From positions 1 through 43,393 of IMG/VR virus record IMGVR_UViG_3300012918_000001: a stretch of DNA of 43,393 nt; one strand, given 5' to 3'. A program made the position numbers and the translations under genes. The notes below the pieces were generated by a model, which saw only the letters and a program-made list of their open reading frames with translations, did not search any database and was not told the DNA's origin. Shown piece after piece: positions 10,193 to 26,363 of this stretch (position 1 is the first letter of the stretch; every line of letters starts with the position of its first letter). This DNA comes from a virus.

Positions 10193-10206
10193 CGAGGAGC
10201 TAGACC

Positions 10207-10395
10207 ATGACCGTAACGCTCACGATTTCGACAGACAATGCTGCATTCGAGAACCAAGCCGGCAACGAAGTAGCGCGCATTCTGCACGTTGTCGCCACCA
10301 AGTTGCACGCCTGGGAAGGCGCAAATGAATTTACTATTGGCCTGCACGATATCAACGGCAACAAGGTTGGCAAAGTGGAGGCGCGCCATGAATAA
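10207..10395 (+). CDS. Early hypothetical protein, 62 aa
   Basis: GAGGAG lies eight bases upstream of ATG 10207. The protein has alternating strands and one helix (NEVARILHVVATKLHAW). It is co-transcribed, and its end overlaps the next start by eight bases. Not recognised. Confidence 0.6.
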   Translation: MTVTLTISTDNAAFENQAGNEVARILHVVATKLHAWEGANEFTIGLHDINGNKVGKVEARHE

Positions 10396-10579
10396 ACGCG
10401 AGACAGCTCTACGGCTCGCGAAGATCGCCGGGTATCACGGCGACTCGAAGACCTTTACGCGCCTGATTATCGAATGTCGCGTCAATCGGCAAGCCATGAA
10501 TTCAGCCTGGTATGCCGGCGAGCGCGCCTTAGAAGCTGGCGTTAAATGCCATTGTCTCGATTGCAAGGAGGCATCGTGA
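10388..10579 (+). CDS. Early hypothetical protein, 63 aa
   Basis: GGAGGC precedes ATG 10388. The product is helical (MNKRETALRLAKIAGYHGDSKTF in outline) and carries a C-terminal CHCLDC, a possible metal site. It resembles small helical phage proteins of unknown function. It is translationally coupled to the next gene by GTGA. Confidence 0.6.
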   Translation: MNKRETALRLAKIAGYHGDSKTFTRLIIECRVNRQAMNSAWYAGERALEAGVKCHCLDCKEAS

Positions 10580-10911
10580 AATATCCAATCAGCGAAGAAC
10601 TCGCAGCAAAGTTGGAAGCTTTCCGCGCGGCACTCGAAGCAGCCACGGCGCGACGCTTGTCCTCTGACGGTTACTCGCTGGAAGTGCACGCCGGAAACTG
10701 GGAATGCACTGTCAAAGTTGGCCGCAAGTATGCCAATGTGGACCGCGGCCGCTCAGGTTGCTACATGGTGGACCTCGCCACGCAAGAGATTTTCTCGATC
10801 AAGGGTTATGGCGTAATCCACCGCGGGCACCGCTTCGGCACGCTCGACACGATCAACGAATGGGACTGGTCGGACTATCGGGCAGTCAAGTTAGCGCCGA
10901 GGGCCGCATGA
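10576..10911 (+). CDS. Early hypothetical protein, 111 aa
   Basis: AAGGAGG lies five bases before GTG 10576, which overlaps the previous stop and is preferred to the ATG at 10546. The N-terminus is helical (KYPISEELAAKLEAFRAALE). The rest is beta-rich, with YMVDLATQEIFSIKGYGVIH and GTLDTINEWDW. This resembles a common phage hypothetical family but I cannot give it a function. It ends in an ATGA overlap. Confidence 0.65.
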   Translation: MKYPISEELAAKLEAFRAALEAATARRLSSDGYSLEVHAGNWECTVKVGRKYANVDRGRSGCYMVDLATQEIFSIKGYGVIHRGHRFGTLDTINEWDWSDYRAVKLAPRAA

Positions 10912-11456
10912 GCGACAACGACATGCTGCGGCTCATGGCCGATCACTCGGGCCATCTCGAGCGCGGAGGCTTGGCAATGCGCGAGGCATCCGACTACTGC
11001 ACAGGCGGCGATGTCATCGGCCGCACGGTCTGGAGCGGTCAGCCGGAATGGGCGCAAGGGCTGGGCCTTAACCGGGCCCAGCTCAAGCGCGCAGTCGAGC
11101 GCCATCTTGCCGGCAAGCGCCTTGGAATCCTGCAGCGCACAGCGGTAGAAGCGATGCAGGCCGAGCTAATCGACATGAAACTGGAAGGAAACGGCCCGGC
11201 CTTCGCCGGGCTTTCCCGCCCTACTCAGCTCGGCAAAGCTGAGCAGCACTTCCTGGCGCGTGATAGGCCGCGCCAAGCGAAGAAGGGGCAGACAATGACT
11301 GAAGAAAAGCCGAAGCGCAAGCGCGGGCGCCCGCCTGTGGCTGGCGAGGGCGTCAAGCGCATCATGGTATCGCTGGACCGCGCGAGCATGGAGCGGGCTA
11401 GGGCGCTAGGCGGCACAATTTCGGCTGGCATCAGAAAGGCTCTGAAAGCGGCTTAA
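10908..11456 (+). CDS. Early protein with C-terminal ribbon-helix-helix domain, 182 aa
   Basis: ATG 10908 overlaps the previous stop. Residues 1-90 are helical (MSDNDMLRLMADHSGHLERG; later LGLNRAQLKRAVERHLAGK). Residues 95-128 are odd: they are translated from a perfect terminator-like hairpin (11194-11211) and a low-complexity linker. The last 53 residues form a complete RHH protein with its own start at 11295. The long form could be genuine or a fortuitous fusion of two cistrons. Its 3' end overlaps the convergent VapE gene by 26 bases. Confidence 0.55.
   Translation: MSDNDMLRLMADHSGHLERGGLAMREASDYCTGGDVIGRTVWSGQPEWAQGLGLNRAQLKRAVERHLAGKRLGILQRTAVEAMQAELIDMKLEGNGPAFAGLSRPTQLGKAEQHFLARDRPRQAKKGQTMTEEKPKRKRGRPPVAGEGVKRIMVSLDRASMERARALGGTISAGIRKALKAA
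11194..11211 (+). terminator. Terminator-like hairpin inside the coding frame
   Basis: A perfect 7-bp GC stem (GCCCGGC / GCCGGGC) with a CTTC loop is followed by TTTCCC. The U tract is short, so it is a weak intrinsic terminator or an attenuator. It lies 84 bases before the internal RHH start. Confidence 0.45.
11295..11456 (+). CDS. Ribbon-helix-helix DNA-binding protein, 53 aa (internal start)
   Basis: AGAAGGGG lies about seven bases before ATG 11295, in the same frame as the longer gene. The product has a basic KPKRKRGRPP tail, a beta strand (KRIMVSLD) and two helices (RASMERARALGG, SAGIRKALKAA), the Arc/CopG-like layout. It is the same length and plan as the protein at 17394-17555. It probably acts as a dimeric repressor or nucleoid-type DNA binder. 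Confidence 0.55.
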   Translation: MTEEKPKRKRGRPPVAGEGVKRIMVSLDRASMERARALGGTISAGIRKALKAA

Positions 11457-14030: not shown

Positions 14031-14078
14031 CGCTGCACCTCCTAAGCTGCAAGCTTGTTTGACAATACTGGCAGAAAT

Positions 14079-14111
14079 GTGGTGAACTTGCAAATATGCC
14101 ACGTTCACCAC
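14079..14111. promoter_or_regulatory. Perfect inverted repeat flanking the start of the LexA-like gene
   Basis: GTGGTGAAC (14079-14087) and GTTCACCAC (14103-14111) are perfect complements with 15 bases between them. The gene's ATG (14096) lies in that gap. The arms contain GAAC and GTTC, the half-sites of Gram-positive LexA boxes, but the spacing is wider. An autoregulatory operator or a translation-blocking hairpin is the natural reading. Confidence 0.6.
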
Positions 14112-14311
14112 TCACGAAAGCTCAACGTCGCGTGTTCGACTTCATCGTCTATTACAAGAACTCCAATGGTCGCCCACCAACGCGCCGCGAGATATCTGAT
14201 CATTTTGGCTGGACTGCGCATAACGCCGCCTCACAGCACTTGCTACTGATCGAGCGCAAAGGTTATCTGCGCTTGGTCGATAACACCGCGCGCGGAATCG
14301 AGATCCTGTGA
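14096..14311 (+). CDS. LexA-type winged-helix DNA-binding protein without peptidase domain
   Basis: All 71 residues align in pattern with the LexA N-terminal domain: LTKAQRRVFDFI, NGRPPTRREISDHFG (recognition helix region), NAASQHLLLIERKGYLRL and ARGIEIL. The usual LexA protease domain of about 120 residues is absent, so it cannot self-cleave after DNA damage. There is no clear Shine-Dalgarno sequence. It is divergent from the VRR-NUC gene, and likely represses one or both. Confidence 0.8.
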   Translation: MPRSPLTKAQRRVFDFIVYYKNSNGRPPTRREISDHFGWTAHNAASQHLLLIERKGYLRLVDNTARGIEIL

Positions 14312-14424
14312 GAATCCTGCGTATCAGGGCGAGCGAACAGTACGCCATCTTCATCTTTCGATTCCGTCCACGGCTCATCGTGGACGATATCGACCCGTAC
14401 CTGACCTGCGTGTGGTTCGCGTGA
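14308..14424 (+). CDS. Very small hypothetical protein, 38 aa
   Basis: GTG 14308 overlaps the LexA-like stop (GTGA), and its own TGA overlaps the next GTG. The peptide is MRILRIRASEQYAIFIFRF at its start. Coupling on both sides is the main support. Function unknown. Confidence 0.5.
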   Translation: MRILRIRASEQYAIFIFRFRPRLIVDDIDPYLTCVWFA

Positions 14425-14639
14425 AAATCGACGGCAACTATATCGTGATGGACAATGGCACGCGCTTTTACGCATTCTCCGGCTGCCTCGGCTTGGATCA
14501 TGATCCTCTGCGGATCACTTACGGCTACGATGGATGGGTTGGAGAGTTTGACCTAGATCAAATGCGCGCCGAACATAAACGCGAGATCGCAGACTTTATG
14601 ATCACGCTATGGACGACATTCCGCGAGGAGCAAAAATGA
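14421..14639 (+). CDS. Hypothetical protein, 72 aa
   Basis: GTG 14421 in a GTGA overlap sets the start. The N-terminal half is beta-rich (KIDGNYIVMDNGTRFYAF), and the C-terminal half is a helix (DQMRAEHKREIADFMITLW). It ends in an ATGA overlap. Not recognised. Confidence 0.6.
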   Translation: MKIDGNYIVMDNGTRFYAFSGCLGLDHDPLRITYGYDGWVGEFDLDQMRAEHKREIADFMITLWTTFREEQK

Positions 14640-14857
14640 ACGAAGACGACAGCTTTCGCATGCTCGATGACAAGGACGTGTTCTACGTCTGCATGCTGCT
14701 GTTCATGTTCGCGCTCGTCTTCGGCGGCTGCTCGCAGGAGCCGGAGGAAGAATTCCGCTCCGCATATCTGCGCCCTTGTGATGCGACCGTGAGCGACCGC
14801 CTGCATTACGCCGATGCCAAGAGCGAGAGATGCTACTTCTTTAAGAGCGCGCGATGA
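14636..14857 (+). CDS. Small membrane protein or lipoprotein, 73 aa
   Basis: GCGAGGAG precedes ATG 14636. Residues about 16-34 are strongly hydrophobic (VFYVCMLLFMFALVFGGC) and end in a lipobox-like FGGC; the rest is polar with three more cysteines. It is either a lipoprotein or a single-pass membrane protein with its C-terminus in the periplasm. Possible exclusion protein, by analogy only. Confidence 0.55.
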   Translation: MNEDDSFRMLDDKDVFYVCMLLFMFALVFGGCSQEPEEEFRSAYLRPCDATVSDRLHYADAKSERCYFFKSAR

Positions 14858-15054
14858 ACTTTATAGAGCATAGGCTTATTCGCGGCTTCAGCAGCACCTT
14901 CGCGATCGACTATCTCAGAGTCAACGAATGGCGTTGGACTGGCCGCGGCATTAACCAACTCGTCATTCCAGAAGACGGCAAGATCCTGATTGAAATTACC
15001 GGCACCGGCAAACTGAGAGTGTTTAGGTCGTCTTCCGACAAGGGGAAACAGTGA
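14854..15054 (+). CDS. Hypothetical protein, 66 aa
   Basis: ATGA overlap with the preceding gene. The product is beta-rich and soluble (INQLVIPEDGKILIEITGTG). It ends in a GTGA overlap with the zinc-ribbon gene. No family recognised. Confidence 0.55.
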   Translation: MNFIEHRLIRGFSSTFAIDYLRVNEWRWTGRGINQLVIPEDGKILIEITGTGKLRVFRSSSDKGKQ

Positions 15055-15227
15055 TTTTCGCCAAGCTGATTTGCAAGCTGCTAGGCCATAGGCGAGGCAA
15101 GCGCGTCGTTGCTGCGACCGACAGCGTGCGGATCATCCTACGCTGCCCTCGCTGCGGCGCCCAATGGACTCGAAAGGTGAAAACACGTGAACGATCACTT
15201 GCACCCGCTGTTCAGAAAGTTGCTTGA
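15051..15227 (+). CDS. Small zinc-ribbon protein, 58 aa
   Basis: GTG 15051 overlaps the previous stop. The pattern CKLLGHR followed by CPRCGAQW fits small phage zinc-ribbon proteins (DUF1660-like, C-x-LGH then CxxC). Two further members are at 18033-18218 and 19495-19656. Its 3' end overlaps the next gene by 41 bases in another frame. Confidence 0.55.
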   Translation: MIFAKLICKLLGHRRGKRVVAATDSVRIILRCPRCGAQWTRKVKTRERSLAPAVQKVA

Positions 15228-15396
15228 GCCGCTCATGGGCAAAGTCATCATCTCGGCAAAGCCCTATGGTCCCGGCAATCCAGACTATGAGTACGACAAG
15301 TGGCAGCAGGAACAGGTTGACGACGAAGCAGAAGCACAACGGATAGCTAACCTCAAAGGAGAATTGCATGTCCGGGTTCCGAAAAGCAAAAGCTGA
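15187..15396 (+). CDS. Hypothetical protein, 69 aa
   Basis: AAAGGTGA precedes GTG 15187. The product begins MNDHLHPLFRKLLEPLMGK and has a charged helical C-terminal half. It overlaps the next gene (ATPase) by 29 bases in a different frame. Not recognised. Confidence 0.55.
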   Translation: MNDHLHPLFRKLLEPLMGKVIISAKPYGPGNPDYEYDKWQQEQVDDEAEAQRIANLKGELHVRVPKSKS

Positions 15397-16363
15397 ACAG
15401 GCGGCCTTAAAGATGGGATTGTACGGCCCGCCAGGATCAGGCAAGACGATGACGGCGCTGCTGCTGGCCGAAGGATTGGGCAAGCTCACCAAGAAGCGCG
15501 TCGCCTACGTGGACACGGAGCGCGGCACGGATTTCTACTGCCAAGCAGTCCCAACTCGAGGAGTACACCCAGAAGCCTTCGACTTCGACGCGATCTACAC
15601 CCGCGCGATTAGCGAAGTCCTCGGCGCGATCCGCGGCGTCGATACGAACACGCACGGCGTGCTCGTGCTCGACAGCGTGACGCACTTGTGGGAAGCCGCG
15701 ATGGCCGCTTATGGCGGCAAGCTCACCAAGATCGGCACGATCCCGATGCACGCCTGGGGCAAGATCAAGAAGCCCTACAAGGATCTAATGGCTTTCATGC
15801 TGTCCTCTCCGCTGCACGTCATCATCTGCGGCCGGCAAAAGACCGTCTATGAGGAGGATGAGGAAACCGAGGAGATCCAGGCTGTCGGCGTAACGATGCG
15901 TGCCGAAGGAGAGACACCCTATGAACCGCATATTCTCCTTCGGATGGAGTCGATCAAGCCGAAGAAAACGAACGAAGTGGCCTCGATCGTTGCCTATGCG
16001 GAGAAGGACCGCACTGGCGTTCTCTCTGGTCGGTCCTTTGTTAATCCCACTTTCGACACCCTTTGCAAGCCCCTCTTGGGGCTTCTCGGTGAAACGCAAG
16101 CCCACATGGCGACCGGCGATGAATCCGCCGCAGTGGATGCCGAGGTTCTCGGCCAGCAGGAGCGGGAGCGGGAAGCGAAGTCGAAAGAGCACTTGCGCCA
16201 GTTCTCGGCTCGTATTGACCTTGCTGCGGACGCCAAAGGGCTGAAGGAAATCGGCAAGGAAATCACGAAAGAGAAAAAGGCCGAAATGTTGCCAGCAGAT
16301 GTCGCTGCGCTGCGTGAGCACTACCAAACGCGGGAAGCAAGCCTCGCAGGGGTGACGATATGA
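15368..16363 (+). CDS. RecA-like AAA ATPase, Sak4-type recombination protein
   Basis: AAAGGAG precedes ATG 15368. Walker A is at residues 17-27 (GLYGPPGSGKT), Walker B at about 98-103 (VLVLDS), and VIICGRQK follows, the pattern of phage ATP-binding proteins of the Sak4 group. These RecA-core proteins promote single-strand annealing and recombination. Residues 255-331 form a charged helical tail. ATGA coupling to the integrase is unusual and may link recombination and integration in expression. Confidence 0.75.
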   Translation: MSGFRKAKAEQAALKMGLYGPPGSGKTMTALLLAEGLGKLTKKRVAYVDTERGTDFYCQAVPTRGVHPEAFDFDAIYTRAISEVLGAIRGVDTNTHGVLVLDSVTHLWEAAMAAYGGKLTKIGTIPMHAWGKIKKPYKDLMAFMLSSPLHVIICGRQKTVYEEDEETEEIQAVGVTMRAEGETPYEPHILLRMESIKPKKTNEVASIVAYAEKDRTGVLSGRSFVNPTFDTLCKPLLGLLGETQAHMATGDESAAVDAEVLGQQEREREAKSKEHLRQFSARIDLAADAKGLKEIGKEITKEKKAEMLPADVAALREHYQTREASLAGVTI

Positions 16364-17292
16364 TCGCGCTCCTCGAGCCGATGATGTCAGACTTCAAAGA
16401 AGGGACCGTTGGCTGGATGATCCAGCGGAAGCTGGATGAGTCAGAACAGCCAGGTTCGAGACAGCCAGGACTCTCACAGGGGTACACTTATCGTGCGCTC
16501 CAGAAGGCACCGATCGCCGCGAAGCTGAATAGCGCCCTCAAGCCGCTGGACTTCATCGAGCACTGCAAGGCGAGGCGCGCAACCGGAGCGCTACCGCAAA
16601 CGATCAAGCAGGACATGATCTATCTTAGCGGCGTGCTGAAGTATGCCGTCGAGGTTTGGGAGATGCCGGACGCCGGCCTACTCGCATACAAAAAGGCGAA
16701 GCCACAGCTCGTGAAGCAGCAACTCATCGCCAAGGCACCATCGCGGGATCGCCGGCCGACTCAGGATGAACTTGACCGACTGCTGGCCTATTTTGACGAA
16801 CAGGCGAAGAATCCGCGCACCAAGATTCCGATGCGCGTGATCGTGGAATTCTCTCTCCTCTCAGCCAGGCGCATCAGTGAGACATGCCGCATCCGGTGGG
16901 ATGATATCGATGTGGAGAAGCGGACCTGTCTCGTGCGCGACCTGAAAAGCCCGAGCGGCAAGGGCGTGAACGATTCCTTTCCCCTCCTCGGCAAAGCCTG
17001 GGACATCGTGCAGGCACAGCCGCGCATCAGCGACAGGATCTTCCCGTACCGCTGGAAGTCAGCCAGCATCTCCTACACGCTGGCGAAGAATCGGCTCGGC
17101 ATCAAGGGGCTGCACCTTCACGACAACCGGCGCGAGTGCATCAGCCGCATGTTCGAGCAGGGCTTCAACGTGCCGGAGGTGGCGAAGCTCTCGCTGCATC
17201 GCAATCCGACGCTGCTGCTCAAGACATACACGGCACTGCGAGCTGAAGATTTGCATCTCGGGCCAGCAGCGAAACGAGCACACTCGGTATGA
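16360..17292 (+). CDS. int: Tyrosine recombinase (integrase)
   Basis: The 310-residue protein has an N-terminal SAM-like helical core-binding region (about 55-125) and a catalytic domain with R171 (ARRISE), K196 (LKSPSGK), H254-x-x-R257 (LHDNRR), H280 and the nucleophile Y290 (LLLKTY). All expected catalytic residues are present, so it should be active. It supports a temperate life style. No adjacent tRNA-like attP was identified. It is translationally coupled to the ATPase upstream. Confidence 0.9.
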   Translation: MIALLEPMMSDFKEGTVGWMIQRKLDESEQPGSRQPGLSQGYTYRALQKAPIAAKLNSALKPLDFIEHCKARRATGALPQTIKQDMIYLSGVLKYAVEVWEMPDAGLLAYKKAKPQLVKQQLIAKAPSRDRRPTQDELDRLLAYFDEQAKNPRTKIPMRVIVEFSLLSARRISETCRIRWDDIDVEKRTCLVRDLKSPSGKGVNDSFPLLGKAWDIVQAQPRISDRIFPYRWKSASISYTLAKNRLGIKGLHLHDNRRECISRMFEQGFNVPEVAKLSLHRNPTLLLKTYTALRAEDLHLGPAAKRAHSV

Positions 17293-17310
17293 TCGCCAAG
17301 AGGAGAAAGA

Positions 17311-17580
17311 ATGTATTGCCCGCATGGCTACGATGAATGCTGGCAGGGCTGCATCTATCCTGGGCGTTGTGGCAGGTTTTGCATTGGCAACGCTTACACC
17401 TTGTCAGCAAGCGCCTTGAGCCACGCTGAGACGCCCTGCTTCCCGGCCTTCCTCCAGTACCCAGCCTTTTCCTGCGATGTACAGCGAAACTCTACGCGAG
17501 CCGTAGAGGGGTTTTTGATAGGGGGCCTGCCTCGCGGTCGCTTGGGCTTGTCCATGTGTCATTATAGTCCGTACAGATAG
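17311..17580 (+). CDS. Cysteine-rich hypothetical protein, up to 89 aa
   Basis: AGAGGAG lies close to ATG 17311. The first 30 residues (MYCPHGYDECWQGCIYPGRC) are cysteine-rich and look real, like a small zinc-binding protein. The remaining two thirds overlap the antisense RHH gene and look like shadow sequence, so this gene may be degraded at its 3' end or may be fortuitous. Confidence 0.35.
   Translation: MYCPHGYDECWQGCIYPGRCGRFCIGNAYTLSASALSHAETPCFPAFLQYPAFSCDVQRNSTRAVEGFLIGGLPRGRLGLSMCHYSPYR
17394..17555 (-). CDS. Ribbon-helix-helix repressor candidate, 53 aa, leaderless
   Basis: The product has a basic KPKRPRGRPP tail, a beta strand (TARVEFRCT) and two helices (SQEKAGYWRKAGKQG, SAWLKALADKV), the Arc/MetJ-type layout. 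The same plan and length occur at 11295-11456. A TATAAT box ends six bases before the ATG, so transcription should begin at or next to the A of ATG 17555 and no Shine-Dalgarno sequence exists. Next to the integrase and divergent from the accessory operon, it is the best candidate lysogeny repressor. Confidence 0.7.
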   Translation of the reverse strand: MDKPKRPRGRPPIKNPSTARVEFRCTSQEKAGYWRKAGKQGVSAWLKALADKV

Positions 17581-17590
17581 TCATTGACAA
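17561..17590 (-). promoter_or_regulatory. Strong promoter of the RHH gene
   Basis: On the minus strand TTGTCA (17590-17585, 5 of 6) is followed after 18 bases by a perfect TATAAT (17566-17561). The predicted start of transcription is 17553-17556, on the initiation codon. Confidence 0.7.
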
Positions 17591-17614
17591 GACCTTGTAT
17601 TTACTTTACTGTAC
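17571..17614. promoter_or_regulatory. Operator region between divergent promoters
   Basis: ACAAG-AC-CTTGT (17587-17598) is palindromic and touches both -35 boxes. GTACAG (17571-17576) and CTGTAC (17609-17614) form an outer inverted pair centred at 17592.5, the same centre as the inner palindrome. GTACGTAC (17611-17618) is a third palindrome next to the rightward start. RHH proteins bind paired short palindromes. Confidence 0.5.
17584..17612 (+). promoter_or_regulatory. Rightward promoter of the accessory operon
   Basis: A perfect TTGACA (17584-17589), 17-base spacer and TACTGT (17607-17612, 3 of 6) place the start of transcription near 17619, the A of the next gene's ATG. Its -35 overlaps the -35 of the leftward promoter almost completely, so the two exclude one another. 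Confidence 0.45.
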
Positions 17615-17618
17615 GTAC

Positions 17619-17870
17619 ATGAACGCTCAACTACACCGCTGCTACAAGTGCAAGAAAGTAGTCCGCACAGAAGGTTTCGAGACTGTGTACTGCTGCGATA
17701 CGCTCACTCCTTGGAATTGGATTGAGGGGCGAGCGAACGGAACAAAATGCGATATTCGCTGCACCAGCGCAATGGGCCATAAGTGCAATTGCCAGTGCGG
17801 CGGCAAGAATCATGGCGCGGACTGGAGCCAACTTGGTGCATCACTCAATGAAGTCCTCAAAGCTGCGTAA
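17619..17870 (+). CDS. Cysteine-rich zinc-binding-like protein, 83 aa
   Basis: ATG 17619 has no Shine-Dalgarno sequence and may be leaderless. The protein has CYKCKK near the N-terminus and CTSAMGHKCNCQCGGKNHG at about residues 49-67, a cluster recurrent in small phage proteins that probably binds metal. It is the first gene of the accessory operon. The role is unknown. Confidence 0.6.
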   Translation: MNAQLHRCYKCKKVVRTEGFETVYCCDTLTPWNWIEGRANGTKCDIRCTSAMGHKCNCQCGGKNHGADWSQLGASLNEVLKAA

Positions 17871-18036
17871 CTACTCGGCCATCGTAGGCGAGGCCAACAA
17901 GATGCTCGAACGCGATGGCAAGCCTTTCCGTTTTGGTGCCGATGGGATAGCGATCTGCAAAGAATGTGGACTGACTTGGTATCCAAATGAGCGTTACTAC
18001 CCAGCCTGCGAACACAACAAGGAATGGCAATCGTGA
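17848..18036 (+). CDS. Small zinc-ribbon-like protein, 62 aa
   Basis: ATG 17848 overlaps the upstream gene by 23 bases in another frame. The N-terminus is basic (MKSSKLRNYSAIVGEANKML); ICKECGLTWYP and YYPACEH supply three cysteines and a histidine. A small nucleic-acid- or protein-binding zinc module is likely. Function unknown. Confidence 0.55.
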   Translation: MKSSKLRNYSAIVGEANKMLERDGKPFRFGADGIAICKECGLTWYPNERYYPACEHNKEWQS

Positions 18037-18218
18037 AAGCACTTCTCTGCTGGCTTGGATTACATGATTGGCGGCAGACGCGCCCATTGAGTGTGCATGA
18101 TGCCTTCCCGCCGTGGTTCATCCCGTACGAGAATCCGCAGCGGACTTGCGAACGGTGCGGGAAACACCAGCGCTGGCTTCCTGGTTATGGCGGTTCCGAA
18201 TTCGGATGCTGGCAATGA
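18033..18218 (+). CDS. Zinc-ribbon protein, 61 aa
   Basis: AAGGA lies nine bases before GTG 18033, which overlaps the previous stop and is preferred to ATG 18024. LLCWLGLHDW and RTCERCGKHQRW match the C-x-LGxH ... CxxCG plan of the proteins at 15051 and 19495. It belongs to a small family expanded in this genome. Confidence 0.55.
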   Translation: MKALLCWLGLHDWRQTRPLSVHDAFPPWFIPYENPQRTCERCGKHQRWLPGYGGSEFGCWQ

Positions 18219-18240
18219 GTAGTTCTTCTCAGAGTAGAAA

Positions 18241-18561
18241 ATGAGCCAAACGAACTTGCTGCAAGAAACGCTGGAAACGCTTAAGGCTGCCGGTAAAACG
18301 GTCAGCGATGTTGCATGGGTGAGATTCGGCAAAGACACTGAGTTTCAGTGCTCGTGGGCGGATTTCGCTGCTGCGGCAGATTTCACCTATGACAATGGTT
18401 ACGGCGGTGCGGAGATTGATCGCAGCTTGAAAATCGTTGGCGCAGATTGGTGGCTTGAGCGTGGCGAATACGATGGCTCCGAATGGTGGGAATTCAAAAC
18501 TCTGCCGACGAAGCCGGAATTACCGCGCGTCCCGGTCGCGGCTGATTTGAAGGATGATTAG
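18241..18561 (+). CDS. Hypothetical protein, 106 aa
   Basis: AGAGTAGAAA precedes ATG 18241. The protein contains IVGADWWLERGEYDGSEWWEF at about residues 63-83, a motif I associate with a widespread but uncharacterised phage family. It is soluble, with a helical N-terminus. Moderately sure it is real; function unknown. Confidence 0.65.
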   Translation: MSQTNLLQETLETLKAAGKTVSDVAWVRFGKDTEFQCSWADFAAAADFTYDNGYGGAEIDRSLKIVGADWWLERGEYDGSEWWEFKTLPTKPELPRVPVAADLKDD

Positions 18562-18581
18562 TTTTCTCTAGAAAGGAAAAC

Positions 18582-18770
18582 GTGAGTAACAAATTCCCGA
18601 AGATCATTCACGTCACCGAGGAACGGCCGGATAACGGAGCGCCTTGGCTCGAAGTCCACAAGGGCGGCGTGGCGTACATCGACGAGCCGCAAGATGTTGC
18701 CGTGTACCAGCTCGTCAAGGTCGGACGCCTGCTGATCGACAAGCGCCTCGTGCAGAAGAAATCTCACTAA
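18582..18770 (+). CDS. Hypothetical protein, 62 aa
   Basis: GAAAGGAAAA precedes GTG 18582. The product is beta-rich (PKIIHVTEERPDNGAPWLEV) with a basic C-terminus (DKRLVQKKSH). No family recognised. It is spaced like its neighbours in the operon. Confidence 0.6.
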   Translation: MSNKFPKIIHVTEERPDNGAPWLEVHKGGVAYIDEPQDVAVYQLVKVGRLLIDKRLVQKKSH

Positions 18771-18782
18771 AGGAAAACAGCT

Positions 18783-19163
18783 ATGAACGATGCGGTCCTA
18801 CAGATCAACGCCAGTCTCGGGCAACGCGCCTCTAAGGAAGCGATCGGCTTGGAGAACAAGGTGAAGGCATCCATGCGCGCGGTAATTCGAGAGAACTGGA
18901 TGGCGACCCGCGATGAGGAATTATTCCGCGCAAGCGTTGGCGGAGCGCTTTTGGACGTTGGCCTTGACAGCGATGACGGCACGCGTTTGCAACGAAGCAT
19001 CGACGTTCTCAAAAAGTTTAGTGCTGTGCTCACTGCCGCACAAGCTGGCCTTTCGATTGATCCGGATTCATGGATTCCGAACGAGGACGACGAAGCGCCT
19101 TTGCCGCTCATGGGCTGGTGGCATGCGATCAAAGCAGAATCCGAGAATAAGTCGAGTAGGTAA
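18783..19163 (+). CDS. Hypothetical helical protein, 126 aa
   Basis: AAAGGAAAA precedes ATG 18783. The protein is largely helical (NKVKASMRAVIRENWMATRD) with an acidic C-terminal half that ends in MGWWHAIKAESE. No enzyme motif is visible. A typical accessory phage gene of unknown function. Confidence 0.6.
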   Translation: MNDAVLQINASLGQRASKEAIGLENKVKASMRAVIRENWMATRDEELFRASVGGALLDVGLDSDDGTRLQRSIDVLKKFSAVLTAAQAGLSIDPDSWIPNEDDEAPLPLMGWWHAIKAESENKSSR

Positions 19164-19174
19164 CGAGTCTAAGC

Positions 19175-19498
19175 GTGAACAAAATCTTTTCTGAATACTC
19201 GACCAGCACCGCGTTCCTGATTCAGTTATCTAAGCGCCAAGTGTGGGGCCTGCTTGCATTACAAACTGGCGGCAAGCGTGATCTGTGGCTAGAGTCAGGT
19301 CAGTTCATCGCACTCGGTAGGACGTTGGCAGCGCGCGGTTTGGTCGAGCACAAGGACGAGAAACCATACTGGCGGCTGACCAAGGCTGGCGAGTTAATGT
19401 GCCTGCTGCTGCGCGAAGCTGGCCTAGACGAGAAGAACACCAAGACAGTCTCGGTCATAAAAGGGCTGATGCAATGGGCCGGAAGGAAAGCAGCATGA
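19175..19498 (+). CDS. Winged-helix-like hypothetical protein, 107 aa
   Basis: GTG 19175 gives a protein whose middle part (SKRQVWGLLALQTGG ... TLAARGLVEHKDEKPYWRLTKAGELMC, in outline) has the helix-helix-wing pattern of small MarR/PadR-like proteins: LxxRGLV followed by a hairpin and LTxAG. DNA binding is a reasonable inference. It is coupled to the next gene by ATGA. Confidence 0.6.
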   Translation: MNKIFSEYSTSTAFLIQLSKRQVWGLLALQTGGKRDLWLESGQFIALGRTLAARGLVEHKDEKPYWRLTKAGELMCLLLREAGLDEKNTKTVSVIKGLMQWAGRKAA

Positions 19499-19656
19499 GT
19501 GTTGCCTTCGGCAGTGCTTATTCTCGGTTCCTGTGCTGGCTTGGATTGCACAAGATCGTCTATACGAAGACGCTTCTCACAATGAAGCGATGCGAGTGCG
19601 CTAATTGTGGCCGCAAGTTCGTAGACACCTTTTACGGGCTGTTTGACGTTGACTGA
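19495..19656 (+). CDS. Zinc-ribbon protein, 53 aa
   Basis: ATGA overlap sets the start. FLCWLGLHK and CECANCGRKF give the same plan as the proteins at 15051 and 18033, with closest likeness to the latter (CWLGLH shared). The end overlaps the methylase start. Metal binding inferred. Confidence 0.6.
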   Translation: MSVAFGSAYSRFLCWLGLHKIVYTKTLLTMKRCECANCGRKFVDTFYGLFDVD

Positions 19657-20104
19657 ACGCTGGCAAACACCGCCGCAAATCTTCGACCCGCTCATGGCCG
19701 AGTTCACTTTCGATTTAGACGCTGCCGCGGATTACTCTACGGCGCGCACACCCAGGTTCCTGAGCGATGCCCTGGCTGTGGACGAATGGCCCGGTGAACG
19801 CATTTGGCTGAATCCCCCATACGGCCGCAAGCTAGCGCCATTCGTGCGTAAGGCCGCGCAGGAGGCTGCGAAGGGAAAGCTGGTGGTAGCCCTCATCCCC
19901 TTCCGCTGCCGTGGCTCCTGGTGGCACGAGGCCGTTGTAGGACACGCTGCCGAGGTCCGGTGTATCCGCAAGCGGCCGAAGTTTCTGAGAGCTGACGGAA
20001 CGCGGCCGAAGCTAACCGGGACGTGCGACTCCTGCATCGTGATCTGGCACGGTCGGCCGGCGCACACGCGGCTCACGTCGTTCTTTCCGAAAGAAGCAAT
20101 GTGA
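19649..20104 (+). CDS. Dam-like N6-adenine DNA methyltransferase
   Basis: The product begins TERWQTPPQIFDPLMAEFTF (in part) and has FDLDAAAD, then IWLNPPYGR at about residues 53-61: the NPPY catalytic motif of the phage Dam family. The protein ends in SCIVIWHGRP-type strands typical of the fold. It probably methylates phage DNA against host restriction. Start is TTG 19649 or 19643; no ATG fits. Size (about 151 aa) is normal for the phage form. Confidence 0.8.
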   Translation: MTERWQTPPQIFDPLMAEFTFDLDAAADYSTARTPRFLSDALAVDEWPGERIWLNPPYGRKLAPFVRKAAQEAAKGKLVVALIPFRCRGSWWHEAVVGHAAEVRCIRKRPKFLRADGTRPKLTGTCDSCIVIWHGRPAHTRLTSFFPKEAM

Positions 20105-20439
20105 CTGAACGGTCTTATTCTCGAATCGTGCAAATCTACCGCGAGTTGCCGGAGCTTGTATGCAAGGGGCTGTGCTCTGCGACGTGCGGCCCTATCGTGA
20201 TGAGCAAGGCAGAGTCCGAGCACATCACCGCAAAGTATGGTTCAGCGCCAACGTGGGACGATTCGCTCACTTGCTCTAAGCTAGTAGATGGACGCTGCTC
20301 GATCTATGAGGACCGTCCGCTCATTTGCAGGCTGTGGGGCACGGTCGGCGGCATGCCGTGTCACTGGGAATGCGTGCCGAAAGGCGGGCGCATCAGCGAC
20401 AGGAAATCGCACAAGCTACTCCGCCGCGCTGGACTATGA
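20101..20439 (+). CDS. YkgJ-like CxC cluster protein, 112 aa
   Basis: GTG 20101 overlaps the methylase stop. Cysteines in LCSATCGP, LTCSKLVDGRCSIYEDRPLICRLWG (in outline) match the zinc/iron-chelating YkgJ family (CxC cluster) in order and spacing. Members are of unclear function, some thought to bind Fe or Zn. Phage copies are small, as here. Confidence 0.7.
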   Translation: MTERSYSRIVQIYRELPELVCKGLCSATCGPIVMSKAESEHITAKYGSAPTWDDSLTCSKLVDGRCSIYEDRPLICRLWGTVGGMPCHWECVPKGGRISDRKSHKLLRRAGL

Positions 20440-20463
20440 GACTTCACAGCTACCGGAGATAAC

Positions 20464-20625
20464 GTGAAACGCAGCGTGAACTTCAACGGTAATCGGCGCA
20501 CTCAAGCTCGGAAAGCTGCGCGTCCTGAGAACCTAGTGGCGACGATGAACTTTCTAGGCATGACTAAAGACGAACAACGCGCCTTTCTTCAACGGGCGAG
20601 CGAGGCACTGGCGAAGGCCAAATGA
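20464..20625 (+). CDS. Small basic helical protein, 53 aa
   Basis: GGAGATA precedes GTG 20464. The product begins MKRSVNFNGNRRTQARKAAR and ends in a helix (TKDEQRAFLQRASEALAKAK). It is coupled to the next gene by ATGA. Nucleic acid binding is possible from its charge. Not recognised. Confidence 0.55.
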   Translation: MKRSVNFNGNRRTQARKAARPENLVATMNFLGMTKDEQRAFLQRASEALAKAK

Positions 20626-21215
20626 AGACCGATACCCCATGGGAGACAGTCTTAAAATTAGCGCGTGAAATAGTGGCGCGTGATGACCGAAACAATCAGG
20701 GTAGTCGCATCCTGCGCCTAGGGCTAACGGACGAATACCAAGTCGCCAAGGCGTTACTGTCAGCACAGGAACTTTTGGATCGTGAAGGCATCGACCATGA
20801 CGGCACGCGCAAGGCTGACGCCGAGCTAGACCGCATTCTTTCAATGAGCGACGAGGAAGTGCGCCAGTCACTCCTGAAAGAAGGCATCGACCCTGAGCTT
20901 GCGGCCTACAATTCTAAATATGCGATAGCGCAGGTTGTAAAACTGGTTGACCTACGCCGCGAGAACGAAAGACTGAAAGTTCTCCTCTCGGAGAGAGTGG
21001 AAAATCCGTGGCGCTTAATCAGCACGCGGCCTAAAGTTGAGGAGCGCACAGAGATTCTTGTCCGCTTCGCATGGCACGGTCGAGACGGGAAGAATTATGC
21101 AGAACATGCTGTCGCGCTCCTGTGGCCGGATGGCGTTATTTCCGACACCAGCGAGGAACCCATAGCGCCGGGTGAACGCGAGACGATTACGCACTGGATG
21201 CCGATACCAACATGA
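20622..21215 (+). CDS. DUF551-like C-terminal domain protein, 197 aa
   Basis: ATG 20622 overlaps the previous stop. Residues 1-125 are helical and end in a coiled coil (LRRENERLKVLLSERV). The C-terminal 70 residues (NPWRLISTRPKVEERTEILV ... ITHWMPIPT) fit the DUF551 pattern that ends in THWMP. This domain is common in phages and has no known role. Confidence 0.65.
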   Translation: MKTDTPWETVLKLAREIVARDDRNNQGSRILRLGLTDEYQVAKALLSAQELLDREGIDHDGTRKADAELDRILSMSDEEVRQSLLKEGIDPELAAYNSKYAIAQVVKLVDLRRENERLKVLLSERVENPWRLISTRPKVEERTEILVRFAWHGRDGKNYAEHAVALLWPDGVISDTSEEPIAPGERETITHWMPIPT

Positions 21216-21250
21216 GCGAGAACAAGACCTCCGATATAGAGGAGAAGTAG
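21212..21250 (+). other. 12-codon mini-ORF between coupled genes
   Basis: ATG 21212 overlaps the preceding stop (ATGA), and its TAG overlaps the next GTG (TAGTG). MSENKTSDIEEK could be a real micropeptide but may only keep ribosomes moving. It contains the Shine-Dalgarno sequence (AGGAG) of the next gene. Confidence 0.3.
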
Positions 21251-21573
21251 TGCCTGCGATGAGCCTATTCAATGAGACAGTCCAGAAAGTTTCCAAGTTG
21301 GAAGCCGAATTGGATATAGCTCATCAGCGCATCCGTTCGCTTGAAATCGCGCTTAAAGCCGCGCGAGCGGACAAGATTAATATGTGGCGTGGCAGATGGT
21401 CTAAGCCGTCGCAGGAATTGCACCTCGCGCACAACGATTTGAACGCTCTGTCCGAAAAGGACGTTGAAGAACTATTCCGCCAGCATCGGACGGAACAGAC
21501 CCCACATAGAAAATGGTGGCAGTTTTGGAAAATGAAACGGGCGGCGCTTATGGCGAGCGGCCATGCGAAGTGA
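21250..21573 (+). CDS. Coiled-coil hypothetical protein, 107 aa
   Basis: AGGAG at 21240-21244 sits five bases before GTG 21250. Residues 5-45 form a coiled coil (NETVQKVSKLEAELDIAHQR). The C-terminus has a Trp-rich basic patch (HRKWWQFWKMKRAALM) that may contact membrane or nucleic acid. No family recognised. Confidence 0.6.
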   Translation: MPAMSLFNETVQKVSKLEAELDIAHQRIRSLEIALKAARADKINMWRGRWSKPSQELHLAHNDLNALSEKDVEELFRQHRTEQTPHRKWWQFWKMKRAALMASGHAK

Positions 21574-21580
21574 AGCGCGT

Positions 21581-21677
21581 GATGGGTGGGTTGGGTCGCA
21601 GGGCGACTACGCGCCTAGGCTGCGATACGCGTGGATCAACTTAGCTGACGGGGGTGCAAATCCTACCGCCGCCCATC
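21581..21677 (+). ncRNA. Candidate structured RNA or degenerate tRNA-like element
   Basis: This non-coding stretch closes with a 9-bp stem, GATGGGTGG (21581-21589) with CCGCCCATC (21669-21677). It encloses GTCGC-AGG-GCGAC (21595-21607) and a hairpin at 21610-21624 with loop CTAG. Near its 3' end TGCAAATCC resembles a tRNA T-loop (TTCRAxxCC) with one change. The anticodon stem does not form properly, so it is not a normal tRNA. A tRNA relic, an attachment-site fragment or a novel RNA are all possible. Confidence 0.35.
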
Positions 21678-21702
21678 CTTTCCAGTGTGGAGATCAGGAG
21701 AA

Positions 21703-21990
21703 ATGATTAACAACATCGTCGAGCTTCTACGCGAAGGAATCTGCGGCGATCCCTGCCGAGTTAGGGATAGCGCCTCCGGTTGTTGGTGCGCCGAAGCCGC
21801 TGACGAGATTCAGCGTCTACGCCACGATGTTTCCAAGGCGATGATGAACCATAACGCTGACGTAAACGCGTTACTGTCGCAATCAGAAGCCCTCGCTCTG
21901 CTGCGCGAGCTGAACGATGCGCTTAAGATCCCAGGGTGGCTACAGCCGCGCGTGGATGCGGTGCTGGATCGAGCGGAGGAGAAGTCGTGA
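21703..21990 (+). CDS. Hypothetical protein, 95 aa
   Basis: AGGAGAA precedes ATG 21703. The N-terminal half contains MINNIVELLREGICGDPCRV and GCWCAEAADEIQRLR, a cysteine-bearing helical motif found in many small phage proteins. The rest is helical. Function unknown; GTGA coupling to the next gene. Confidence 0.65.
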   Translation: MINNIVELLREGICGDPCRVRDSASGCWCAEAADEIQRLRHDVSKAMMNHNADVNALLSQSEALALLRELNDALKIPGWLQPRVDAVLDRAEEKS

Positions 21991-22451
21991 ACAGTATGCC
22001 GACAGAAGATGTGATTATGGCAATGGGATTCTGCCTCATGCGAAAGCCGAATAAGATTACGCGGGAGGAAATAATCACAGCTTGGCGCATAGCACAACCC
22101 AAAGTAGATGCGCCGAAACTCTATGCCCAATGCAATAGGCACGCTGGTACGCCATGGCCTCAGAGTAGGATAACGGTCACCCTCACTGCAGCGAGCGTGC
22201 ATCAAACTGTGTGCCCGAATTGCGAGCAAGATAAGCCCCAACCAGGAGAAACCATGAGCGACGCCAAAGACTCAGCTACCTTGTCAATATCCGGGGCGGT
22301 CGTCTTGGATCTGAAAAAATACCTGCTGGCGCATGAGGACGACATCTACTACGGCATCAACGACTTCGGCAACTTGGCACATGTCTTCCACGTCATAATG
22401 GAGCGCCAAGCTATGCAGATGCGCTCCTTCGCCGCAGAGAGGAAAGAGTGA
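21987..22451 (+). CDS. Two-part hypothetical protein, 154 aa, with internal start
   Basis: GTG 21987 overlaps the previous stop. Residues 1-89 hold a helical segment (ITREEIITAWRIAQPK) and cysteines at LYAQCNRHAG and VCPNCEQ that could form a zinc site. From residue 90 a second unit begins at an ATG with a strong Shine-Dalgarno sequence. It could produce both a long and a short protein. No family recognised for either part. Confidence 0.55.
   Translation: MNSMPTEDVIMAMGFCLMRKPNKITREEIITAWRIAQPKVDAPKLYAQCNRHAGTPWPQSRITVTLTAASVHQTVCPNCEQDKPQPGETMSDAKDSATLSISGAVVLDLKKYLLAHEDDIYYGINDFGNLAHVFHVIMERQAMQMRSFAAERKE
22254..22451 (+). CDS. Internal in-frame product, 65 aa
   Basis: AGGAG lies seven bases before ATG 22254. 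The 65-residue product (MSDAKDSATLSISGAVVLDL at its start) is an alpha/beta unit with LLAHEDDIYYGINDFGNLAH. The strong ribosome site inside the larger frame suggests it is made independently. Confidence 0.5.
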   Translation: MSDAKDSATLSISGAVVLDLKKYLLAHEDDIYYGINDFGNLAHVFHVIMERQAMQMRSFAAERKE

Positions 22452-22624
22452 AGCTGAAAAAGAAAGATCCTCCGCTCGTGCGCCGTTTCCACTGCGAGTC
22501 CTGCGCTGACGGCAGCTATAGGGTCCGCGCGTCCTATCGTGGACGCCAGCGGCCAGGAGTACTCACGCGCCTGTCCTTCGCTATGCAGATCGAGAAGCAG
22601 TTGAACAAGGCGCTACGAAAATGA
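22448..22624 (+). CDS. Small basic hypothetical protein, 58 aa
   Basis: GTG 22448 overlaps the previous stop. The product is basic (KLKKKDPPLVRRFHCESCAD) with one CxxC and a helical end (FAMQIEKQLNKALRK). Metal or nucleic acid binding is possible. Not recognised. Confidence 0.5.
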   Translation: MKLKKKDPPLVRRFHCESCADGSYRVRASYRGRQRPGVLTRLSFAMQIEKQLNKALRK

Positions 22625-22647
22625 ATGCCTCTCTGGAGGGGTCTTAA
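22621..22647 (+). other. 8-codon mini-ORF between coupled genes
   Basis: ATG 22621 overlaps the upstream stop. The frame MNASLEGS ends at TAA one base before the next GTG (22649), and it contains that gene's GGAGGGG. It is the third such mini-ORF in the genome. Confidence 0.25.
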
Positions 22648-22648
22648 A

Positions 22649-22942
22649 GTGAAGAAACGCGGGGCTCTCGGAACGCAAATTCATGGGGCTTACAAAGCTT
22701 TGCCGTTGGGTAGCAGGCTACTCGCTCGCATGGCGGCGAAACTGCCGCCTGAAACAAAGGTAAAAATAATCAAGAAACCTGACGGAAGAACCGCAAGAGC
22801 GAGGCTCACAGATGAACAAGTCCGTGAAATGCGCAACCTATCTGCGGTTCACTCAATGAAAACACTCTCGCAAATGTTTGGCGTGCCATACGAATACGTT
22901 CGCACAATCATCATTGGCGAAACGAGGAGACATGTTATCTAG
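22649..22942 (+). CDS. Helix-turn-helix protein, 97 aa
   Basis: GGAGGGG is seven bases before GTG 22649. Residues 58-97 (LTDEQVREMRNLSAVHSM, LSQMFGVPYEYVRTIIIGET) fit the resolvase-like HTH found at the C-termini of phage HNH proteins and in small regulators. The N-terminal 55 residues are basic. It may be a remnant of a homing-type protein or a small DNA-binding protein. Confidence 0.6.
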   Translation: MKKRGALGTQIHGAYKALPLGSRLLARMAAKLPPETKVKIIKKPDGRTARARLTDEQVREMRNLSAVHSMKTLSQMFGVPYEYVRTIIIGETRRHVI

Positions 22943-22959
22943 TTCCCTGAAGGAGGGAA

Positions 22960-23178
22960 ATGATGACCGACGAGATCGATAAAAGGTGCCTTATTGTCCG
23001 AGCGCCTTGCTGCGGCAGAGTCGTCATCGCCACTTCGCTTCGTCCGAATGTCTATGACCGCCAGACGAAGATGGAGGTTGCGACGTTAGCCGGCAAGGGT
23101 TACACCGTGGAGACACGTCCGGTCGAAGAAGTGCGCCAGATGCCATTTGGCTGTCACTGCAAGAAGGAGGCAGCGTGA
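22960..23178 (+). CDS. Small cysteine-containing protein, 72 aa
   Basis: AAGGAGGG precedes ATG 22960. APCCGRVV near the N-terminus and FGCHCKKEAA at the C-terminus provide two cysteine pairs that could hold one zinc; the middle is alpha/beta. Not recognised. Confidence 0.6.
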   Translation: MMTDEIDKRCLIVRAPCCGRVVIATSLRPNVYDRQTKMEVATLAGKGYTVETRPVEEVRQMPFGCHCKKEAA

Positions 23179-23205
23179 TTAGACCGGCCTCAAAGAGGAG
23201 AAGTT

Positions 23206-23403
23206 GTGCGTGAATGGTTGGTCATTGAAAGCAGCATGAAGAATGGCGTGTTCGCGCCCGACGAGGCACGCATGCCGAAGGGCTATATTCCGCGCGATGT
23301 AGCCGAAGGGCTGCTCGGTCGCAGTCTCGACGGTACTCAGTGGTTTACGCGCGAAGAAGGCCAGCTAATGCGGGCGCATCCAGAATGGCGGAGGATCTTG
23401 TAA
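23206..23403 (+). CDS. Hypothetical protein, 65 aa
   Basis: GAGGAGAA precedes GTG 23206. The product begins MREWLVIESSMKNGVFAPDE and ends MRAHPEWRRIL. It abuts the next gene directly (TAA then ATG). No family recognised. Confidence 0.55.
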   Translation: MREWLVIESSMKNGVFAPDEARMPKGYIPRDVAEGLLGRSLDGTQWFTREEGQLMRAHPEWRRIL

Positions 23404-23679
23404 ATGCCGCACGGCGCACTGATTGAAGCTCGGCTGATGGCCGACGAGATCGAGGCTCAGATCGAGGAAGCCGCGAACATGGGCGAGCCGCCGTCCTTCG
23501 CTCTAGCGCGACATCAAGCTGACTGGCTGTTAGCGTTCCTGCGGAAGCCAATAGGCGAGACAGTCTCTTGCAATCACGTTCGACAAACCGACTTTCAAGT
23601 TGTCCGCTTGTACATGTGCCATGCCTGCATCGAGCAGATTAAGGCATCGCACATCGAAGCGCAGAAGCAGACCCCTTAA
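23404..23679 (+). CDS. Hypothetical protein, 91 aa
   Basis: ATG 23404 follows the previous TAA immediately. Residues 1-45 are helical (LIEARLMADEIEAQIEEAAN). The C-terminal half has CNHVRQT and YMCHACIEQI, a likely metal site. Function unknown. Confidence 0.55.
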   Translation: MPHGALIEARLMADEIEAQIEEAANMGEPPSFALARHQADWLLAFLRKPIGETVSCNHVRQTDFQVVRLYMCHACIEQIKASHIEAQKQTP

Positions 23680-23693
23680 TAGGGACACCAAGA

Positions 23694-24002
23694 GTGGAAT
23701 TCACCCCTGAACATCGCGCCAAGGCCAAGGCAGCCCGGGAAGCCGCCATTGCCGCATCGCAGCATTACAAGCGGAACTGGCTTGATTCCGACCTGTGGGA
23801 AAGCCTCGCTAAAGCGAAGGGAGTCCGCCTCCCCGTATGGAGCAAGGCACCGACCCCCTCAAACCTGTCCAAGTGGCATAAACGCCTTGATACGGAGCCT
23901 TTCAAGTCCGTTTACGGCTGTCTGCCACGTCGCCTGATCCAGCTAAATCCGCACACTCCGCTCCGGGCCTTTGTAGGCCACATGCTCGAACGGACCGCCT
24001 AG
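23694..24002 (+). CDS. Hypothetical protein, 102 aa, end of the early operon
   Basis: GTG 23694 starts a basic protein (MEFTPEHRAKAKAAREAAIA) with a central WLDSDLWESLAKAKGVRLP, reminiscent of small DNA-binding accessory proteins, though I cannot assign a family. Its TAG overlaps the stop of the convergent Rz gene, and no terminator separates the two operons. Confidence 0.6.
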   Translation: MEFTPEHRAKAKAAREAAIAASQHYKRNWLDSDLWESLAKAKGVRLPVWSKAPTPSNLSKWHKRLDTEPFKSVYGCLPRRLIQLNPHTPLRAFVGHMLERTA

Positions 24003-24538
24003 CAGGCTTTGGTGTCCTTGCAGTACCGCTCCCGCACGTCGCTATAGAAGGCTTGGCAGGCCAGTAGCTGCGTCAGGTTAGAGCTGAACCGCTTGTGATT
24101 CTCGTCGAAGGTCACGGCGAGGGCTTCACAGGTGGAACCGGAAGCCAAGGCTGGGGCGGCTGGCCGATCGCCGGCGGCATCATTGGGAGCGGGGGCGCCT
24201 GTATCGTCGTTGAGCACGAACAAAGTGTCAGCGTCGATACGGCAATCAGCCAGTGCGCTATGTGATTTTCGCAATGCGGCCTCAAGGGCTTTAGCACGCT
24301 CATCGCCTTTCTCCTTTTCAACCCGCAACTGCGCAATCGTATTCGATTCAGCCTGGGTAGCGCCTCCCTGCAGCGCTTCTCCGGTCTTTGCGGCCGCGCG
24401 CTCGGCTGCGAGCTCTACTTTGAGTTTCGCGCGTTCGTCGAATACGCCTTTGACATACCAGCCGCCAGATACGAGACCAGCGAGGCCGATGATGATCCAG
24501 AACGTCTTTGACTTGAGTAAGTCGAGGAGCCACGGCAT
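23999..24538 (-). CDS. Rz: Inner-membrane spanin (Rz-like), 179 aa
   Basis: One membrane segment (about residues 13-35, FWIIIGLAGLVSGGWYVKGVF) is followed by a long periplasmic coiled coil (KVELAAERAAAKTGEALQ ... DERAKALEAALRKSHSAL) and a cysteine-containing C-terminal part. This is the i-spanin plan. With the embedded Rz1 it spans the periplasm and fuses inner and outer membranes at the last step of lysis. It directly follows the endolysin gene. Confidence 0.8.
   Translation of the reverse strand: MPWLLDLLKSKTFWIIIGLAGLVSGGWYVKGVFDERAKLKVELAAERAAAKTGEALQGGATQAESNTIAQLRVEKEKGDERAKALEAALRKSHSALADCRIDADTLFVLNDDTGAPAPNDAAGDRPAAPALASGSTCEALAVTFDENHKRFSSNLTQLLACQAFYSDVRERYCKDTKAC
24112..24303 (-). 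CDS. Rz1: Outer-membrane spanin (Rz1-like), embedded in Rz
   Basis: Out of frame inside Rz, ATG 24303 has AAGGAG eight bases upstream. The 63-residue product has a signal (IAHWLIAVSTLTLCSC, lipobox LCSC) and a proline-rich mature part (PPLPMMPPAIGQPPQPW). This is the classic lambda-type Rz1 lipoprotein arrangement. Not visible from Rz annotation alone. Confidence 0.8.
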   Translation of the reverse strand: MSVLKPLRPHCENHIAHWLIAVSTLTLCSCSTTIQAPPLPMMPPAIGQPPQPWLPVPPVKPSP

Positions 24539-25056
24539 TATGCGACCGCCGTATAGCTAGGCGTGCCGTTGGTGAAGATCGCGGTCAACACTTCGCCGCG
24601 GAGTTGCGGATCGAAGGAGCAATGGCACCAGCCGCCGCCATTTGGCCCGACGCCTTCTTCTATCAGCTCGTCAAATTTGATGCCAGAGGCCCTGACGATC
24701 TTCACGATCTCGGCAGGCGTGCCAAACGCCGGGCAGATGAAATCCGTCGCATAGCCTTTCGGGTGTGCCTTGCGAGCGAAGTATTCAGGCCATGCGATCA
24801 CAGGATCTTTGTCATGGCGAGCGCACCAAGCCAAGAAGTCCTTGGCGCACAGCACCTTCTCCAGCGCCTCGCAGCGGTAGCCCGAATGCACGATGAGCGC
24901 ATGGCCGGTGACCTTACGGATCTGCTCCAAGCCCTGCGCGTTCACGACGAGATGCGGCGTGATCTCCGGCGGCGGCGTGTTGTCGATGCCTAAGCGCACC
25001 GCGGTATCACTGGCGGTCAGCTCCTCGTAGCTGAAGTGCTCGGTCAACTGGGTCAT
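24538..25056 (-). CDS. Endolysin: M15-family peptidase
   Basis: The 172-residue protein begins MTQLTEHFSYEELTASDTA and has NTPPP, IVHSGYRCEAL, HPKGYATDF (H98 and D105) and WCHCSF (H145). These are the zinc ligands of the peptidase M15 (VanY/D-Ala-D-Ala carboxypeptidase-like) fold. It cleaves peptidoglycan stem peptides. It has no signal peptide, so a holin is needed. The first zinc motif reads KAHPKG rather than the usual SxHxxG, and an insert of about 25 residues precedes it. Confidence 0.85.
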   Translation of the reverse strand: MTQLTEHFSYEELTASDTAVRLGIDNTPPPEITPHLVVNAQGLEQIRKVTGHALIVHSGYRCEALEKVLCAKDFLAWCARHDKDPVIAWPEYFARKAHPKGYATDFICPAFGTPAEIVKIVRASGIKFDELIEEGVGPNGGGWCHCSFDPQLRGEVLTAIFTNGTPSYTAVA

Positions 25057-25166: not shown

Positions 25167-25177
25167 TCGCCAGCGCC

Positions 25178-26025: not shown

Positions 26026-26033
26026 GGTGCCTC

Positions 26034-26354: not shown

Positions 26355-26363
26355 TCGCCCTCT

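Follow-up and report, generated by a model that had tools for sequence, protein, structure and literature searches.

A candidate autoregulated module of divergent, putatively leaderless promoters beside the integrase gene of a temperate phage

Introduction

In phage P22, the mnt and ant promoters lie back-to-back. Small ribbon-helix-helix (RHH) repressor genes of the P22 immI region control neighbouring genes and are separate from the main prophage repressor (PMC2629481; PMC10516654). In the virus SSV1, the 6.3-kDa RHH protein F55 binds repeats at the early promoters and at its own promoter, and keeps the virus dormant (PMC5569661). Leaderless regulatory transcripts have been described in the telomere phage PY54, whose cI and cro mRNAs begin on the AUG, a situation that the authors compare with lambda cI (PMC4488713). 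On plasmid pLS20, the autoregulating repressor Rco is bound across overlapping divergent promoters of unequal strength (PMC4207663).

Here we analyse a viral IMG/VR record of 43,393 bp, referred to at its full length as the window, in which a 53-aa ORF (RHH1) and an accessory operon diverge from a short intergenic gap. At a rough probability of 45%, we read this locus as an autoregulated local repressor module with mutually exclusive, divergent leaderless promoters. A previous, sequence-only reading of the same DNA had proposed a compact lysogeny switch built on an Arc-type protein instead of a CI/Cro pair.

Results

Genome organization

The gene content of the window is that of a temperate, podovirus-like phage. 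Its TerL shares 48% identity with that of Burkholderia phage BcepC6B, and it encodes a portal-like head-tail adaptor, an MCP and an internal virion protein, together with a primase/helicase, a VRR nuclease, a Sak4-like annealase and a tyrosine integrase. In a relative with 84% TerL identity (G001), a single run (20225-29931) comprises the MCP gene, the head gene after it and the tail genes; their counterparts in the window are split between the two ends, at 2006-408 on the left and at 41470-31744 on the right. Because the gene order in G001 is one run, positions 1 and 43393 probably join, and the genome would be circular or circularly permuted. With the ends joined, a leftward arm bearing the replication and late genes starts at the ATG at 14030 and continues round to about 24,000; the rightward arm occupies 14,096 to 24,002, and the two arms diverge at 14031-14095. 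RHH1 is located 3.3 kb inside the rightward arm, convergent with the tyrosine integrase gene and about 100 bp from it (Table 1). Between the head genes, a 59-aa ORF on the minus strand (4278-4457) with a VDHDHKTG...C..C motif is probably the source of the Endonuclease_7 match (E 1.9e-17) among the control ORFs.

Table 1. Coordinates of the features at the RHH1 locus, in the accessory operon and at related loci of the window.
Feature	Position	Strand	Details
RHH2, second 53-aa KRGRPP + RHH protein, CcdA-like	11295-11456	+	
TTGACA-18-TGAACT promoter-like site, perfect -35	14059-14088	+	ATG 14096 8 nt after -10
Inverted repeat GTGGTGAACTTG-9-CACGTTCACCAC, putative operator	14079-14111	.	Over LexA-DBD start codon
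LexA DNA-binding-domain-only (LexA-DBD) protein, 71 aa, first rightward-arm gene	14096-14311	+	LexA_DNA_bind E 3.6e-19; phrog_362 repressor 1.8e-15
RHH1, 53-aa basic protein, proposed autoregulator	17394-17555	-	ORF; weak RHH matches; sibling RHH2
Leftward -10 TATAAT	17566-17561	-	18-nt spacer; GACAC, then ATG 17555
Outer palindrome, left arm CGTACAG, putative O_L	17570-17576	.	Abuts leftward -10
Rightward -35 TTGACA, perfect	17584-17589	+	Overlaps leftward -35 by 5 bp
Leftward -35 TTGTCA	17590-17585	-	Overlaps rightward -35 by 5 bp
Inner palindrome ACAAG-AC-CTTGT	17587-17598	.	On shared -35
Rightward -10-like TACTGT, 3/6	17607-17612	+	17-nt spacer; A of ATG 17619 7 nt beyond
Outer palindrome, right arm CTGTACG, with perfect palindrome TGTACGTACA, putative O_R	17609-17619	.	
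First accessory-operon gene, 83-aa Cys-rich protein, without Shine-Dalgarno	17619-17870	+	phrog_6842 E 1.3e-5
Accessory rightward sub-operon, about 20 small genes	17619 to about 24002	+	
phrog_3972 protein	18241-18561	+	In accessory sub-operon
Dam methylase	19643-20104	+	In accessory sub-operon

Overlapping promoters and nested palindromes

The gap between RHH1 and the 83-aa gene measures 63 nt, ranks within the top 0.2% of stretches for AT content and contains direct as well as inverted repeats. The leftward TTGTCA-18-TATAAT element proposed in the sequence-only reading is present. With a score of 11/12, it is the sole promoter at this level and the top one of the whole 43-kb contig; chance yields 0.15 such promoters per simulated 43-kb sequence of the same dinucleotide content (P 0.002 for a 63-nt region of equal composition). 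Its -10 is separated by 5 nt from ATG 17555, the sole possible start of RHH1 because an in-frame TGA lies inside TATAATGA. This gap fits a transcript starting on the ATG, as had been suggested, and it is from the spacing that we infer a leaderless RHH1 mRNA. Both the 5-nt spacing and the single in-frame start argue for a local repressor.

The perfect TTGACA that was said to overlap the leftward -35 was likewise found, with 5 of 6 bp common to both boxes. Given this overlap, the two promoters would not be occupied simultaneously. The rightward -10 is poor, TACTGT being the best-placed candidate, which counts against a local repressor. Promoter-like sites, defined by at least 5/6 in the -35 and at least 9/12 overall, number 26 in the contig against 22 in simulation, so the rightward promoter, which scores 9/12, is not beyond chance when taken alone.

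An ATG follows the -10 by about 5-8 nt at 3 of these 26 sites, namely those of RHH1 (17555, 6 nt from -10 to start codon), the 83-aa gene (17619, 7 nt) and the LexA-DBD gene (14096, 8 nt), the last of which the sequence-only reading had missed. Simulations give a mean of 1.2 such leaderless-type starts, and at least three in 10% of cases, so that their number is weak evidence; of interest is where they lie, each of the three coinciding with a candidate regulatory start. The Shine-Dalgarno sequence is indeed missing at both divergent genes, but about half of the ORFs scored likewise lack a good one, and its absence alone does not set a gene of this phage apart.

Two nested palindromes share the centre 17592.5, and the outer (CGTACAG/CTGTACG) and inner (ACAAG/CTTGT) arms both fit the arrangement described earlier. 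The putative O_R spans the rightward -10, start point and ATG (right arm at 17609-17615), and the 10-mer at this site occurs once in the contig. Concentric palindromes are also present in 0.3% of simulated regions (P about 0.003, in a post hoc test). The GTAC-type sites have their centres at 17572.5 and 17614.5, 42 bp or 4.0 helical turns apart. This spacing and the concentric layout over both promoters are consistent with binding by a local repressor; no homologous loci were found to show operator conservation, which counts against it. The arms CTGTACG/CGTACAG were also considered as a LexA box (CTGT-N8-ACAG), a reading that was rejected by eye on account of the wrong spacing.

RHH1, its coding status and its sibling RHH2

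In RHH1, an AT-hook-like N-terminus, KRPRGRPP, precedes a segment that resembles a ribbon-helix-helix; a sensor domain is absent. Its profile matches are to MobC_2 (E 0.055), NikA-like (0.067) and MbpA (0.2), and to phrog_876, annotated as a transcriptional repressor (E 0.083). All are under curated cut-offs and none extends past residue 43, short of helix B. These RHH-like matches come from three libraries, which argues for a local repressor; among spurious contig ORFs of similar size, 0/111 match an RHH family in Pfam. The AF2 model, computed with no alignment, has low confidence (pLDDT 63) and a single helix at residues 27-52. The proposed ribbon-helix-helix assignment has the backing of weak, MobC/NikA-type matches and of the sibling RHH2, and is weakened by the E-values and by matches that end before helix B. 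The Arc-type assignment was not supported: Arc/Mnt is absent among the Pfam matches up to E 10, a PDB sequence search gave no match, and RHH1 has no sequence relation to Mnt or Arc.

Homologues of RHH1 are scarce. Searches of phages and plasmids (tblastn, up to E 10) returned nothing but noise, genome contigs gave no confirmed homologue, and 399 genomes of the order of G015 gave frame-chance matches alone. The sole relative in viral contigs is L002 (43% over 35 aa). There, a small protein with the same N-terminal motif, in the form GRPPIKNP (L002:5980-6288), immediately precedes an integrase; the contig is otherwise unrelated. RHH1 is absent from G001. By integrase, L028 alone is related at 65%, and no RHH gene follows its integrase; among 25 loci of Sak4 relatives, the RHH search was negative in those tested. 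Across the relatives identified by integrase, Sak4, TerL, LexA-DBD and VRR nuclease, no conservation of the rightward arm as a block was seen.

RHH2, which is likewise AT-hook-like, shares 37-39% identity and the KPKR-RGRPP start with RHH1. Its residues 21-52 match the RHH-fold antitoxin CcdA (E 0.0035), and it also matches two small GRP-type proteins, L097 and L099, from genomes of the order of G015. RHH1 becomes more believable as a gene because the genome holds this second GRPP+RHH protein of the same length. RHH2 lies at the end of an island (9771-11456) whose rightward orientation is opposed to that of the replication and terminase genes, which read leftward. Ahead of the island lies a 10/12 promoter, TTGACA-17-TATATC (9695-9723, plus strand), and its first ORF (9771) has a Shine-Dalgarno sequence, which suggests a moron expressed from a promoter of its own.

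The opposite strand carries an 89-aa ORF with a Cys-rich start (17311-17580, plus strand), located just after the integrase gene and fully overlapping RHH1. It is unlikely, in our estimate, that this ORF is the real gene, the 53-aa ORF is none, and the leftward promoter drives an antisense or non-coding RNA. Such an arrangement would agree with the Shine-Dalgarno energy, -9.1 kcal/mol at 17311 versus -3.2 at RHH1, which counts against a repressor gene, with the near lack of RHH1 homologues and with an RHH1 codon score (0.021) only slightly above non-coding frames. This last value does not settle coding, however, and the plus-strand ORF scores worse (-0.148) and has no homologue; RHH1 has its equal-length sibling, and its ATG lies at just the right distance from the best promoter. 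Taken together, the weak RHH assignment, the poor AF2 model and the indecisive codon usage count against local repression by RHH1. Inside the RHH1 antisense, a terminator-like hairpin, CTCTACG-CGAGC-CGTAGAG-GGGTTTTT (17490-17508, plus strand), could end integrase transcription (fold z just -1.1).

The accessory operon and the LexA-DBD locus

Downstream of the divergent promoter of RHH1, the gene order places accessory genes alone, which argues for a local repressor, as does the PHROG match of the 83-aa gene. No ORF of the accessory operon matches Ant, BRO or KilA-N. The protein at 18241-18561 also carries an "excisionase" label (phrog_16544), which we distrust, as it apparently stems from a lactococcal phage annotation; its relatives, annotated as "hypothetical protein", are frequent among phages of the 936 group.

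The LexA-DBD protein is the sole well-recognised regulator in the contig. The start codon of its gene is overlapped by an inverted repeat of 12 bp with one mismatch, a putative operator of the main switch, and the gene faces the VRR/primase/terminase operon. In BcepC6B, it is cI/cro that faces primase/terminase, in the matching position. Within 14031-14111, the VRR nuclease gene opposite has a strong Shine-Dalgarno sequence, and this stretch is likely the real switch.

The proposal that RHH1 forms a compact lysogeny switch was outweighed by this locus at the true divergence of the arms. RHH1 does not stand where lysogenic and lytic transcription diverge; the LexA-DBD gene does. We therefore judge it improbable that RHH1 is the immunity repressor of the main switch in place of CI/Cro. 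In its favour, no CI or Cro protein was detected in a scan of 84 contig ORFs, an RHH repressor maintains lysogeny elsewhere (SSV1 F55, PMC5569661), and the strongest predicted promoter of the contig drives RHH1. Against this, the LexA-DBD gene, with its own inverted repeat, is syntenic with BcepC6B cI/cro; the replication/late operon start at 14030 is 3.5 kb away in the opposite direction, with no copy of the TGTACGTACA palindrome nearby; and RHH1 is missing from the relative with 84% TerL identity. The LexA-DBD protein, acting at 14031-14095, is the likelier agent of the main choice between lysis and lysogeny. Since RHH1 lies inside the rightward arm and faces accessory genes, it could directly control the accessory operon alone.

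Discussion

Reading promoter activity, leaderless starts, binding and repression from the observed sequence elements, geometry and gene order, we propose the following mechanism. RNA polymerase would use the strong leftward promoter and produce a leaderless mRNA for the 53-aa RHH-like protein. RHH1 may then bind both GTAC palindromes, the one by its own -10 and the one that covers the ATG of the accessory operon together with the rightward -10 and start point, thereby limiting its own synthesis and repressing the weak promoter from which that operon is read. Occupancy of a single promoter at a time would give the leftward promoter, and with it the repressor, the advantage for as long as the repressor is neither lost nor inactivated, and the accessory operon could open once RHH1 falls.

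We assign a small chance to a more ambitious version, in which one RHH protein and two exclusive leaderless promoters sharing their -35 would form a bistable switch. It would act as a second control of immunity or excision, the main repressor being the peptidase-less LexA domain, expressed without a leader as well. The least likely account holds that RHH1 is a recombination accessory factor (an excisionase or integration host protein) and the 63-bp gap a part of attP, not an operator: the nearby tyrosine integrase, the position of the sole outside relative, L002, also directly beside an integrase, the extreme AT-richness and repeats of the gap, and a weak RHH1 match to phrog_1723 ("recombinase") favour it, but attP has no need of a near-perfect promoter in register with a start codon, and the repeats are symmetric across both promoters.

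A local repressor module of this kind, if true, would be about the smallest divergent switch that can be built, with a 53-codon gene, a control region of 63 bp and leaderless messages. Promoter exclusion and regulation without leaders could be studied cleanly in it, in a phage that has three candidate regulators (the LexA-DBD protein, RHH1 and RHH2) and lacks a recognisable CI/Cro.

Each part of the module has a precedent and the combination is new; we regard it as plausible. Bacterial GRP...GIR(K)AL small RHH proteins, which are CcdA-like, have the layout of a GRP N-terminus and an RHH segment that is found in RHH2 and, more loosely, in RHH1, although RHH1 has no match to them above the cut-off. 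F55 belongs to an archaeal virus with TATA/BRE promoters and tandem ATAGATAG repeats, and RHH1, unlike F55, is probably not a master repressor. The leaderless mRNAs of PY54 encode CI/Cro-type repressors, not RHH proteins. Rco of pLS20 is an HTH tetramer of a Gram-positive plasmid, with a second operator 75 bp away and experimentally supported looping. P22 immI differs in that no antirepressor is recognised in the operon here and RHH1 is unrelated in sequence to Mnt and Arc. Gene order and promoters are divergent at the present locus too, where the RHH identity is weak and control of the operon is predicted. The RHH1 locus appears closer to accessory modules of the immunity or moron type, as exemplified by P22 mnt/ant, than to a replacement for CI/Cro.
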